Of a DNA stretch of 64,000 bases, positions 57,471 through 64,000 are shown one piece after another; the stretch's first letter is position 1, and each line of letters starts with the position of its first letter. Under the pieces are notes generated by a model. The model worked only from the letters and a program-made list of their open reading frames with translations. It searched no databases and was not told where the DNA came from. This DNA comes from Thiomonas delicata (GTDB taxonomy: Bacteria; Pseudomonadota; Gammaproteobacteria; Burkholderiales; Burkholderiaceae_C), in assembly GCF_900088825.1 (NCBI RefSeq), contig NZ_LT592171.1:1280664-1344663 (forward strand), read 5' to 3'. The translations under genes were made by a program, and so were the position numbers.

Positions 57471-57555
57471 GCCCAGATGGCGGAATTGGTAGACGCACTA
57501 GTTTCAGGTACTAGCGCCGCGAGGCGTGGAGGTTCGAGTCCTCTTCTGGGCACCA
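57471..57555 (+). tRNA. tRNA-Leu (CAG)
   Basis: 85-nt class II tRNA. The acceptor GCCCAGA pairs with TCTGGGC. The anticodon stem-loop CTAGT-TTCAGGT-ACTAG gives CAG. It has a variable arm (CGCCGCGAGGCG), T loop GGTTCGAGTCC and encoded CCA. It is the likely integration site of the island that follows. Confidence 0.96.
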
Positions 57556-57621
57556 CACAGATCAATCGACAATGTGCATGGTACGACAGCAATCGCACAT
57601 TTTCATATAAATCAATAAGTT

Positions 57622-57655
57622 ATAAGCAACAGGCCCTCCGGGGCCTGTTGCTTAT
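57622..57655 (+). terminator. Hairpin terminator after tRNA-Leu (CAG)
   Basis: ATAAGCAACAGGCCC, loop TCCG, then its exact complement GGGCCTGTTGCTTAT, a 15-bp stem followed by TGTGC. The GGCCC/GGGCC core is typical of tRNA terminators, although the U-tract lies within the stem base. Confidence 0.65.
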
Positions 57656-57716
57656 TGTGCGTCGTTTGCACGTGTTTGCTACGCTTTTTACTCAGCATCT
57701 ACGCATGAGGTTACGC

Positions 57717-58712
57717 ATGGCAAGCATCGGCAAGCACGGCGGTGGCTGGCGCGCCCAAGTGTTCGTCAAGGGCAAGCGGGCAACGCGCGTGTTCAGAACG
57801 CAGCGCGAAGCCAGGGTCTGGGCGGACAACACCGAGGCTGAGTTTCGCGCACCACCCAAGGCCCCTGCCTCAACCCGTACGCTGCGCGATTTACTGGAGC
57901 GCTACCGCGACGAGGTCACCCCCAAGAAAGAGACAAGCCGCACCGAAACCAACCGGATCAATGCGTTCTTGCGTGACTTCCCAGAGCTCGCCGACAAACT
58001 CCTGCAGAACCTGGACACGCCGGATCTGGCTGCCTGGCGCGACAAGCGCCTCAGTGAGGTCAAGAGTGGGACCGTGCATCGCGACATCACCTGGTTGCGC
58101 GCGGCACTCAACAAAGCGCGCCAGGAATGGCGCTGGCTCGACACCAAACCGTTCGATGGCCTTGAAATCCCCGCGGACAGCCCCGAGCGTGAATCGTTAT
58201 GGGGCTGGCGCGACATCCGCGCGATGTTCGACAATGCAGGCTACCGTCCCGGGCGCAAGCCGGAGAATGCGACACAAGAGGCAATCCTCGCCTTTCATGT
58301 CGCATTGCGCACCGGAATGCGCAGTGGCGAGGTTCTGCAACTTGGCGCACGCACGCTGGACCTTGGCAAGCGCGTCGCCGTTGTCGAGCACAAGACGCAG
58401 CGGTACACCGGCAAGCCACGGCGCGTGCCCCTGCTCTCGCCGGCAATACGGCTCCTGAAACCTTTCTCCGGGCAAGAACGAATCTTCACCATTGGTGACG
58501 TCGAGCGTGATGCATTATTCCGAAAAGTGCGCGATCGGCTGATGCTCAAGCATCTGGACTTCCACGACAGCCGCGCAACCGCGCTGACGCACATGTCGCG
58601 CAAGGTGCCCGTGCAGGTGTTGTCCCGCATCAGCGGGCACAAGGACATTCGCATTCTCGTCAACCGCTACTACCGAGAATCCGCAGAGGACATCGCCAAA
58701 CGGTTCGCGTAG
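57717..58712 (+). CDS. Tyrosine recombinase/integrase of the tRNA-Leu island
   Basis: 331 residues. The arm-binding domain is MASIGKHGGGWRAQVFVKGK, the core-binding domain LRDLLERYRDEVTPKKETSR. The catalytic domain has Arg in LRTGMRSGEVLQL, HxxR in HDSRATALTHM, His in ISGHKDI and Tyr in NRYYRES. All R-H-R-H-Y residues are present, so it should be active. It starts 162 bp after tRNA-Leu (CAG), a standard position. It shares the MASI(G/R)KHG start with the remnant at 8869. Confidence 0.92.
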   Translation: MASIGKHGGGWRAQVFVKGKRATRVFRTQREARVWADNTEAEFRAPPKAPASTRTLRDLLERYRDEVTPKKETSRTETNRINAFLRDFPELADKLLQNLDTPDLAAWRDKRLSEVKSGTVHRDITWLRAALNKARQEWRWLDTKPFDGLEIPADSPERESLWGWRDIRAMFDNAGYRPGRKPENATQEAILAFHVALRTGMRSGEVLQLGARTLDLGKRVAVVEHKTQRYTGKPRRVPLLSPAIRLLKPFSGQERIFTIGDVERDALFRKVRDRLMLKHLDFHDSRATALTHMSRKVPVQVLSRISGHKDIRILVNRYYRESAEDIAKRFA

Positions 58713-58933
58713 ATAGAAATGCTCCCCAGGCGTCGTTGCGGGGCGACGCCGCACGCGCCGAGTCCAGCCCGGGCAGATCCCGAGCCTTCCGCGGATGGCC
58801 AGCCGCATGGGCCTGCCCAGGTCGCCGACGCATCGGCTGACGACGTTTCCGGTCCACGCGCCGGCTTGCGTCGACTTGCATCGGCTCCTTCCTGTGATGA
58901 GATGGTTGGCATCCTCATCCCGGAGCGCCCACG

Positions 58934-59656
58934 ATGCCCATCCAACCCGCAGCGCAACCCGCATCCTCGTCACCCCCATCGCGGCTGCGCCGCCGCTTGA
59001 CCGCCCTGCGCGACATCCTGCGCGTGCTGTGCTGGACCGACGTCCGGGCCGGCCAGCGCCTCCGCCTGGCGCTGCAACAGCGCTTTGCACGGCGTGGCCA
59101 ATCGCCCAGGGGGGCCCGTCGCATGGCGGGCCTGCGTCTGGCCGCCGCCCTGGGCAGTGCGATCCTACTGTCGCATGCACCCGGGATGAGCCGGGCATTC
59201 CTGCTGCTGGCGTTCGCCCTGGTCGGGCTGTATGGCCGCGGCATCCTGCACCTCGGCCGAGGCGATGCCTGGGGCAAGTCGGTGTTCCGTGCCAGTGGCC
59301 ATGATCTGCAGGCCCTGCACCTGGCCTCCACCCTGAAGCGGCTGCGGCCCGAAGCCCTGGGGGACGAGGTCCTGCGGCACTGGCGGTGCGCCCGGCGCTG
59401 GGCCTGGACGACGGTGGCGCTGCTGGCGGGTCTGGCCTGGGGACTGGCTCGGGGCGTGGGCTGGGTCCTGGCCCACCAGCCTGCGCACGGCTGTCGCGCC
59501 CTGCCCTGGCTGCTGGGCACGGCGCTGGGGCTGGCGATGTGGCTGCCCACCCGCTACGACCACCATGTGGGCCTGGCCTTGGGCCTGAGCCTGGATGCGA
59601 CCGAAACAGCCGAAGCCGCCGCGGCCGCCCGTGCACCTCCGGACGCTGCGCGCTGA
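58934..59656 (+). CDS. Island membrane protein of unknown function
   Basis: 240 residues, not recognised. A basic, Arg-rich N-terminal half (RLRRRLTALRDILR, RLRLALQQRFARRG) precedes hydrophobic segments near 65-95 (AGLRLAAALGSAILL, AFLLLAFALVGLYG). A central amphipathic stretch follows, then two more segments near 155-205 (TTVALLAGLAWGLARGVGWV, LPWLLGTALGLAMWLP). The Ala-rich tail is acidic. It ends 49 bp before the double AAA+ gene, so the two probably form one unit. GGAG precedes the ATG. Confidence 0.7.
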   Translation: MPIQPAAQPASSSPPSRLRRRLTALRDILRVLCWTDVRAGQRLRLALQQRFARRGQSPRGARRMAGLRLAAALGSAILLSHAPGMSRAFLLLAFALVGLYGRGILHLGRGDAWGKSVFRASGHDLQALHLASTLKRLRPEALGDEVLRHWRCARRWAWTTVALLAGLAWGLARGVGWVLAHQPAHGCRALPWLLGTALGLAMWLPTRYDHHVGLALGLSLDATETAEAAAAARAPPDAAR

Positions 59657-62642: not shown

Positions 62643-62816
62643 TGCGTCAGCAGGCGATGTGCGGGAGGTGGGGCACCGACCTGGCGCGAAGCGCTGCCTC
62701 CAGGCATGAAGGAACTTTAAGTGTTCCGTGCTCAAGCGGTACCCGCACGTCGAGGCGGAGACGCTGGCGAAGAAGCTGGGGTGACAAGATGGGGCCATTA
62801 TTGATACCATTCGGGC

Positions 62817-63074
62817 ATGCGTGACGCCAGCAAAATCCTTGAGCAGATGCGCCGCGAACCGGCGAGCGTGCGGTTTGCTGATCTGCGCAAGGTCTGCGTG
62901 GCGCATTTCGGAGAGCCCCGGCAGTCCGGCACAAGCCATGCGGTGTTTCGCATGCCGTGGTCTGGAGACCCCCGCGTCAACATTCAGTCAGACAAGGGCA
63001 AGGCCAAGGCATACCAAGTCCGGCAGGTACTCGCTGCCATCGAGAAACTGGAAGGCATTCGCCATGAACGCTGA
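62817..63074 (+). CDS. hicA: HicA-like toxin
   Basis: 85 residues. The HicA dsRNA-binding-like fold ends in VCVAHFGEPRQSGTSHAVFR and NIQSDKGKAKAYQVRQVLAA. The family's catalytic His is matched by SHAVF. It is an mRNA interferase of a type II toxin-antitoxin pair. The gene overlaps the downstream hicB by 11 bp. It is longer than the classic ~60-residue HicA. Confidence 0.8.
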   Translation: MRDASKILEQMRREPASVRFADLRKVCVAHFGEPRQSGTSHAVFRMPWSGDPRVNIQSDKGKAKAYQVRQVLAAIEKLEGIRHER

Positions 63075-63387
63075 TCACTACACCTATCGCGTCACCTGGT
63101 CGCCGGAAGACGGCGAGCATGTGGGTCTGTGTGCTGAATTCCCCTCGCTGTCCTGGCTGGCCTCTACCCCTGATGCCGCCCTCAAGGGAATCCGGCGCGT
63201 CGTCGCGCAGGCCGTCGAGGACATGCGCAATTCTGGCGAGGACGTTCCGCAACCGCTGGCCGAAAAGCACTACAGCGGACAGTTCCGGGTTCGGATTCCC
63301 CCGGAAGTCCATCGTGCGCTCGCAACGCAAGCCGCTGAGCAAGGCGTGAGCCTGAATCGGCTGGCAAGCGCAAAGTTGGCCGCCTGA
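63064..63387 (+). CDS. hicB: HicB-like antitoxin
   Basis: 107 residues. An N-terminal partial RNase H fold (YTYRVTWSPEDGEHVGLCAE, FPSLSWLASTPDAALKGIRR) and a C-terminal ribbon-helix-helix (FRVRIPPEVHRALATQAAEQ, ending VSLNRLASAKLA) match HicB, which neutralises HicA and represses the operon. Overlapping genes fit the hicAB order. Confidence 0.85.
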   Translation: MNADHYTYRVTWSPEDGEHVGLCAEFPSLSWLASTPDAALKGIRRVVAQAVEDMRNSGEDVPQPLAEKHYSGQFRVRIPPEVHRALATQAAEQGVSLNRLASAKLAA

Positions 63388-63540
63388 AGCAATCCCAAAC
63401 GAGCGACGAGGCTGGGATAACCCGCAGGGGCCGGGCCGGGGGTGTCTGAAGCCCCTACCCGGTGATGGTGGCCTGTTGGCCGCTGCCAGGGGTGTGCCCT
63501 GGGTCCTGCAGCGCGAGAGCTGTCTATACGAACCGGCGAA

Positions 63541-63765
63541 TCAAGCGGCGATGGCCTTCCTCGGCCGTCCGCCCAGCTTGCCGTTCTCCCGGGAGGCCGC
63601 GGCCTTGGCGGGCGTTCGCATGGCTCCACCGGTTTGCCCCATCAGCCCAGCCATCCATTGGCGCGAACCAAAGACGCCCTCCAGCAGCGCCGGCAGGTAC
63701 AGGTCGGCGTCGAGTTTGGGGACGTGCAGGCCAAGCCCGCTGGGCGTGATCTCGATGTCGGTCAG
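63541..63765 (-). pseudogene. DUF2442 protein, 5' end replaced by the 150-bp element
   Basis: The remaining frame reads TDIEITPSGLGLHVPKLDAD, then LPALLEGVFGSRQWMAG and the typical tail AKAAASRENGKLGGRPRKA, the C-terminal part of DUF2442 proteins found beside toxin-antitoxin-like genes. The first ~40 residues expected of the family are missing. The frame instead continues into the inverted-repeat element, which supplies MAHSPIGMWLKSASAPT. Tail to tail with hicB. The 63388-63540 gap shows nothing. Confidence 0.7.
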
Positions 63766-63916
63766 TGTTGGCGCCGATGCCGATTTGAGCCACATGCCGA
63801 TGGGCGAGTGAGCCACGGCAGACGAACCGCGTGCGGCGTCAGGCTTGAATGTCGTCGCGCTCCAACCGGCTCACCGCAAATCCGGCGCCTGGCTCAAATC
63901 GGCATCGGCGCCACCA
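63766..63916 (+). mobile_element. 150-bp MITE-like element, copy 2
   Basis: Starts TGTTGGCGCCGATGCCGA and ends TCGGCATCGGCGCCACCA, with inverted ends of about 27 bp. It shares the internal sequence TGAGCCACATGCCGAT and CCAACCGGCTCACCGCAAAT with copy 1. It interrupts the DUF2442 gene. A CAGTG lies near both edges (63763-63767 and 63915-63919), a possible target duplication that overlaps the presumed ends. Confidence 0.75.
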
Positions 63917-64000
63917 GTGGTGAGGCTCAGAACTTGACGAAGGTCGCTTCGCTGGCAACCGCTGGATGCGGTTTCACGGGACGCGGGCCTTGCCGGCCCG

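Follow-up and report, generated by a model that had tools for sequence, protein, structure and literature searches.

The described systems closest to the locus reported here are the double-ring unfoldases of the Cdc48/p97/Rix7 type, the IetAS system and the Clp ATPases ClpX, ClpA and ClpC. The unfoldases carry two classic AAA modules with a threading pore loop in the second, and AAA+ rings of this class have their C-termini emerging at the exit side; in IetAS, the AAA-domain protein IetA is partnered by IetS, a subtilisin-like protease. The Clp ATPases present a hydrophobic-Gly-Phe tripeptide on a flexible segment, with the ClpP-docking consensus given as (L/I/V)-G-(F/L) (PMC8745299). Here we describe a gene pair near the end of the window, by which we mean the whole 64,000-nucleotide stretch of Thiomonas delicata DNA analysed (G000:C5:1280664-1344663): a predicted membrane protein gene (hereinafter designated MEM) and, after a gap of 49 nt, a tandem-AAA+ ATPase gene (AAA). 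We tentatively propose that, together with the small protein p71, their products form one membrane-tethered unfolding machine, predicted to act in defence against phages or invading elements.

Judged by its sequence, the ATPase has the features of a Cdc48-like unfoldase, namely two intact AAA modules and, in the second only, a threading pore loop of the form W/Y-V/L-G. All 27/27 aligned relatives share, in each of the two modules, the P-loop GK, Walker B DE, sensor Asn and Arg-Arg, and the pore loop of the second module (AAA2) reads W (16), Y (10) or L (1), then V (17), L (9) or F (1), then G (27) in these 27 sequences. An AlphaFold2 (AF2) model built from the same sequences has a mean predicted local distance difference test score (pLDDT) of 82.7, with the tail under 50, and its best PDB matches in Foldseek are Rix7, Cdc48, NVL and p97; since the template-modelling (TM) scores reach only 0.4–0.5 on the query, the match concerns the rings and not the whole protein. 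We consider protein unfolding highly probable as the activity of the ATPase. It differs from the unfoldases by its C-terminal GF tail and by an N-domain without family match, which the first-pass annotation had already called unrecognised: no Pfam match is shown for the 235 residues preceding the first AAA module among the best 25 of 45 families. Membership of the CDC48 family proper (NCBIfam TIGR01243) was rejected, with a score of 80.7 bits against a cut-off of 802.65. In PADLOC and NCBIfam the window ATPase matches IetA best (4.5e-33 and 8.4e-31), the AAA domain being common to both, but the IetA profiles are 262–395 positions long compared with 731 residues in the window ATPase, and the NCBIfam IetA (IteA) score of 107 bits against a cut-off of 510 led us to reject IetAS membership as well. 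No subtilisin-like protease was found among the profiled genes of the cassette described below, the other island genes having been looked at only as gene calls by eye.

The ATPase ends in a flexible tail that resembles the Clp tripeptide segment. Residues 720–727 are variable, and they are followed at 728–730 by I or M in 24/27, G in 26/27 and F in 26/27 of the aligned sequences. Of 60 rows of the wider family, 53 have [ILMV]GF among their final 16 residues (I or L in 39, M in 14). Among the 565 other proteins called in these loci, the tripeptide is found there in 8, five of the eight being AAA/P-loop relatives or a distant 375-aa AAA+ ATPase that ends SSIGFV in two genomes (G023 and G001). 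The genome holds one ClpP gene. Docking of ClpP through the C-terminal tail is possible, if somewhat doubtful.

For MEM itself, neither Pfam nor PADLOC nor NCBIfam gave anything at E<=1, and three to four hydrophobic segments are seen by hydropathy in its full-length form. It was found in 5/28 genomes of the genus, in 2/299 genomes of a family sample (its own and G292) and in 1/250 genomes of an order sample (its own only). A profile search in which 7,999 candidates were scored returned 37 proteins, and the few named relatives come from Thiomonas, a betaproteobacterial metagenome-assembled genome and mine-drainage metagenomes; in all, MEM turned up in this genus, one other genus and metagenomes only. 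None of 53 pattern matches in viral contigs was confirmed, and a protein search of plasmids found none. With these counts, co-occurrence of the pair in other genomes, the check that the first-pass annotation had named, is not wide; the pair does recur in itself, as three intact copies across two island types plus remnants in one further genome (G013).

Where MEM occurs, it tends to have the same companions. p71 was found in 4/28 genomes of the genus, all four among the five with MEM (chance 2.4e-4, without correction for kinship). MEM and p71 also stand beside the 375-aa AAA+ ATPase, which is present in 3/28 genus genomes and is only 29% identical to the window ATPase, over one AAA domain. The order in G023 (L159) is p266, 375-aa AAA+, p71, MEM3, p257, MEM3; in G001, p266, AAA+, p71 and the start of MEM run up to a contig end (L250), and p71, MEM3 and p257 lie on another contig; in the window's own genome, a locus of this kind (L156) holds p266, AAA+, p71, m88 and a broken MEM2. 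Neither p266 nor p257 has a Pfam family over the cut-off. We read 11 MEM-family loci with their context (the window, L157, L153, L031, L032, L156, L159, L160, L154, L155 and the MEM2 of L007), and the first seven have, within 6 kb, a complete or partial AAA+ gene of one type or the other. Because MEM and p71 stand beside a second, distant AAA+ ATPase, MEM, p71 and an AAA+ protein look like one unit, and it is probable that the three work together. The earlier suggestion that the membrane protein and the ATPase act as one machine is thereby strengthened, although it is still a prediction.

MEM, AAA, p71 and the fourth gene, m88, make up a discrete 3.9-kb cassette that is present in a second island type too. 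Similarity begins at 58752/58753 in L153, L157, L032 and L163 and ends at 62670–62673 in L153, L157 and L031, and the flanks outside these edges differ between loci. The second copy (L157) lies in the same genome, on C5 near 0.80 Mb, with an integrase only 36% identical and with adjoining AbiEi/AbiEii genes, and the copy in G292 (L153) is near-identical to it. In G013 the cassette is broken, MEM and the N-terminal half of the ATPase forming one piece (L032) and MEM, the C-terminal ATPase part, p71 and m88 the other (L031), with insertion sequence (IS) or recombinase genes standing between them. m88 is present as well in L153, L157, L031 and L156, and a DUF4143 ATPase gene sits between AAA and p71 in L157 and L031. 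The cassette genes are under purifying selection between copies, with ratios of nonsynonymous to synonymous substitution (dN/dS) of 0.29–0.53 for MEM (6 pairs), 0.21–0.37 for AAA (3 pairs), 0–0.55 for p71 and 0.33–0.66 for m88. A third AAA copy in the same genome (start at L007:7761) was not counted; this 465-bp stretch is 100% identical to L157 and bracketed by single Ns at L007:7665 and 8131, and may for these reasons be a scaffolding artefact. No convincing terminal repeats of the cassette were found, the one candidate being a 25-nt direct pair of 84% (58768 and 61988), and no cassette DNA was found in plasmids. As a separate observation, a serine-recombinase element in G013 (690-aa enzyme, named by eye) splits family ATPase genes inside the Walker A codons, and the same end of the element borders the Walker A codons of an istB-like gene too, as though P-loop DNA were what it targets.

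A defence role is suggested by the relatives of the ATPase. At least 361 were confirmed and the best 80 loci kept; of those 80, L047–L081 entered the neighbour count and L105 the gene calls only, the rest being omitted as distant AAA matches without the N-domain. Identity to the window ATPase is 45–56% in the genus, 42–45% in Rahnella, Pseudomonas and Methylococcaceae, 34–50% for the best eight plasmid matches and 31–35% for a sister clade drawn from the family's other genera; a protein labelled Thiomonas delicata (P0001) is 96% identical to the first 260 residues. In a 60-row tree, which has a midpoint root and several long branches, the MEM-linked ATPases group as one clade (100/100) inside another of 10 rows (100/96), where the remaining labelled members are linked to DUF2779. 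A WYL and/or DUF2779 gene occurs at a distance of 10 kb or less in 28/34 partner rows (WYL alone 24/34, DUF2779 14/34), compared with 0/14 rows of the sister clade (Fisher p 8e-8, without correction for kinship), 2/7 of the outgroup and 0/3 MEM rows. For many of the counted rows one flank is shorter than 10 kb, three rows from G013 are almost the same, and four of the 28 come from loci that supplied queries, leaving 24/30 without them; neither the tree nor the count includes rows below 480 aa (among them L045, L054 and L073, with WYL nearby, and L081 and the broken G013 genes, with none). Regulation of defence systems is a described role of WYL domains (PMC4012209). The ATPase was found in 17 plasmid records, and the seven that were read contain WYL in 7/7, DUF2779 in two, BREX genes in one and helicase, phospholipase D (PLD), RecB-like or PD-(D/E)XK genes in five; viral contigs gave six distant loci, and phages one record of 50,697.

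The unnamed loci that combine the ATPase with WYL and DUF2779 (L037, L164 and L166, and L048 and L167 of a helicase type) share with the window the tandem-AAA+ family at 41–56% identity, the tail, in all five, and a mobile or plasmid location. They differ in their neighbours, which are WYL, DUF2779 and often PLD or helicase genes, as against MEM, p71 and m88 here. The window ATPase belongs to a branch that is a genus-restricted exchange of partners inside a broad, unnamed family of defence-type tandem-AAA+ proteins. A housekeeping orthologue was rejected, the sister clade, which holds DUF3567-linked genes, being a separate branch; the ATPase lies outside any characterised housekeeping family, and its nearer relatives are mostly in defence-type loci. 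For the cassette itself, we regard a defence function, predicted from these relatives, as evenly balanced. No description of the MEM–AAA pair or of a DUF2779–WYL–tandem-AAA system was recognised among the papers listed by literature searches, most subscription papers being out of reach. Two loci of the family, in Rahnella (L048:9947-18826) and on a Pantoea plasmid (L167:8695-17555), consist of five genes, a tandem-AAA+ ATPase, a WYL protein, two nameless proteins and a helicase, the second nameless gene in Rahnella having a weak ZacB match; we list them as an unnamed candidate system.

The cassette sits on a mobile element, as had been supposed from the integrase beside tRNA-Leu(CAG), both of which were confirmed (Table 1). 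Since the 3′ end of the tRNA (last 23 bp) is repeated exactly about 87 kb downstream, the locus in the window is one end of an island, which spans 87.1 kb and runs well beyond the window end. No tRNA was found at the far repeat, and the far end of the island adjoins apparent phosphoribosyltransferase, purA, hisZ, hfq and der genes (named by eye). In 3/8 loci of other genera, tRNA-Leu(CAG) adjoins the same phosphoribosyltransferase gene, the pattern expected of an unoccupied site. Within the genus, 0/26 loci (its own included) have a tRNA within the fetched 1.5 kb at this flank, and the gap between the two island flanks on single contigs varies from about 15 kb (G026 and G009) through 55 kb (G001) to 111 kb (G013), so the site seems often occupied. 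With its integrase at the tRNA, its far-end repeat and an unoccupied site in relatives, the element is a tRNA-targeting integrative island. A 93% identical integrase lies behind tRNA-Leu(CAG) in G013 (L031). The expectation of defence-type cargo was also borne out, by a type I-C CRISPR-Cas system on the same island: Cas1c, Cas2, Cas4, Cas5c, Cas7/Csd2, Cas8c/Csd1 and the HD part of Cas3 score above their cut-offs, the helicase part of Cas3 falls just short of its own, and an array of at least 46 repeats adjoins the cas genes.

Other calls of the first-pass annotation fared well in the main. The 240-residue length of MEM, the 49-nt spacing and the 731-residue ATPase with its two AAA+ modules are all as it gave them, as are the two small genes (p71 and m88); of the HicAB pair that it placed after them, HicB matches its profile (6e-16), while the HicA-like candidate has no profile match, Pfam included. 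Beyond this pair lie a DUF2442-like gene (63541-63795, minus strand), whose match of 2.8e-4 is below the cut-off, and a 37-nt inverted repeat (63763-63799/63883-63919); the stretch 63764-63916 recurs at 98% in L156.

Table 1. Features of the locus, of the ATPase and of related loci. Plain numbers are window positions unless residues are stated.
Feature	Position	Strand	Basis or remark
tRNA-Leu(CAG)	57471..57555	+	ARAGORN
Likely left attachment site, last 23 bp of tRNA-Leu(CAG)	57533-57555		Exact 23-bp repeat at G000:C5:1425276-1425298
Island-borne tyrosine integrase	57717..58712	+	Phage_integrase 1.9e-15; start is the likely ATG at 57717, placed by eye at MASIGKHGGGW
Discrete cassette MEM-AAA-p71-m88	58753..62670	+	Similarity boundaries across loci
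MEM, 240-aa predicted membrane protein	58934..59656	+	Open reading frame; relatives, alignment, hydropathy
AAA, 731-aa tandem-AAA+ ATPase	59706..61901	+	Two PF00004 stretches, 3.3e-43
AAA, N-domain	residues about 25-235		
AAA, first module (AAA1)	residues about 263-450		
AAA, second module (AAA2)	residues about 522-716		Followed by flexible tail ending MGFV
p71, small protein recurring beside MEM and AAA+ genes	62088..62303	+	No Pfam match
m88, hydrophobic N-terminus and MazE/AbrB-like C-terminus	62376..62642	+	PF04014 5.5e-6
HicA-like toxin candidate, outside cassette	62817..63074	+	Named by position before HicB and by eye
HicB antitoxin, outside cassette	63064..63387	+	PF05534 6e-16
Type I-C CRISPR-Cas and array	L171:400-3900 and 3842-11944		G000:C5 near 1.356-1.368 Mb
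p266/AAA+/p71/MEM3/p257 set (G023)	L159:4688-8744		
Serine-recombinase sites (G013)	L031:9340-9430; L032:10380-10470, 12930-13040; L033 near 9277, 11812		

In the machine that we propose, six copies of the ATPase would assemble into a double ring like those of Cdc48, p97 and Rix7 and would thread their substrates through the second ring by way of the W/Y-V/L-G pore loop. Full-length MEM would tether either the ATPase or the substrate to the inner membrane, choice of the substrate would fall to the unrecognised N-domain, and p71 would serve as a small adaptor or regulator; the flexible tail, with [I/M/L]GF on the exit side, might dock a ClpP-type peptidase, by which the threaded protein would be destroyed. 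The physical complex, the membrane tethering, the ClpP docking and the defence role are all predictions.

Several observations weigh against this proposal. The window copy of MEM is without most of its strongest hydrophobic segment, 18 codons (54 nt) of the first segment having been lost between two 18-nt repeats, with a fall in the mean hydropathy of that segment from 1.95 to 1.37; the other copies, L157 among them, keep the 54 nt, and a 240-aa MEM protein of 98% identity from elsewhere than this contig (P0005) speaks against an assembly error as the source of the deletion. The structure model of MEM is poor (pLDDT 52) and unfit for a fold search. No AAA+ gene lies within 6 kb in 4/11 MEM loci (L160, L154, L155 and the MEM2 of L007), most ATPase relatives are without MEM, and few of the MEM–AAA pairs are independent, since L153 and L157, both intact, hardly differ from each other (AAA dS 0.03). 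On the side of the ATPase, the first module has no aromatic pore loop. The tail tripeptide is absent in 7/60 rows (L169, L058, L069, L061, L067 with FGF, L076 with LGL and the 5′ fragment L077), the 375-aa relative in G000 ends AGFV, and the window tripeptide is MGF, M being outside the (L/I/V) position of the published consensus (PMC8745299), which 39/60 rows fit; in ClpX, ClpA and ClpC the tripeptide is on an internal loop, whereas here it is at the C-terminus of a classic-AAA protein. The MEM-linked ATPases have neither WYL nor DUF2779 nearby (the window row has a right flank of only 2.1 kb in the neighbour count, and L007 shows neither to 19 kb), so the defence role is guilt by association through their relatives.

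Some of these observations would suit other explanations. MEM could be a toxic membrane effector that the ATPase keeps inactive or assembles on a trigger, in an abortive-infection or island-maintenance module without proteolysis. Such a role agrees with a small multi-segment membrane protein tightly linked to an ATPase, with the HicAB-like pair on this island and the AbiE genes on the second, and with the ability of Cdc48-type ATPases to remodel without a peptidase. MEM2 genes without an ATPase, each behind a 57-aa gene in L007, L154 and L155, are unlike a toxin that needs an ATPase antidote, however, and the conservation of the tail points to a partner that docks at the exit side; we consider a toxic effector rather unlikely.

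The ATPase-free copies in L154 and L155 also bear on a function outside defence, in membrane-protein quality control or as stress cargo for acid, metal-rich water, because they lie in a stretch common to G000 and G292 with apparent two-component and other resident genes (by eye). The narrow range of MEM, with mine drainage as the source of the named metagenomes, fits this, as does the ATPase sister clade, which looks vertical and is without WYL or DUF2779 genes nearby; such a function is nevertheless unlikely, given a cassette carried in two island types and an ATPase branch nested among WYL/DUF2779-linked rows. Finally, MEM and AAA might be chance neighbours that function separately in a region where blocks have been duplicated, recombined and reshuffled. 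MEM2 and L160 copies that have no ATPase, and the predominance of ATPase relatives without MEM, are what this would predict, but MEM and p71 are found with two dissimilar kinds of AAA+ gene, arranged in two different orders, and each gene is under purifying selection; we consider mere adjacency decidedly unlikely.

The membrane-tethered unfolding machine is the explanation that we tentatively retain. If right, it links an unnamed tandem-AAA+ family in defence-type loci, a terminal tail resembling the ClpP-docking segment, and an orphan membrane protein with exchangeable ATPase partners. Its fullest form, a Cdc48-like immune machine in which ClpP is docked via C-terminal [I/M/L]GF tails and nuclease/WYL partners have been swapped for a membrane protein, is decidedly unlikely. 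Were it true, the protease would be directed against the membrane as phages or plasmids enter, and the whole WYL/DUF2779-linked ATPase family would belong to bacterial defence as a branch of Clp-type proteolysis that has so far gone unrecognised.

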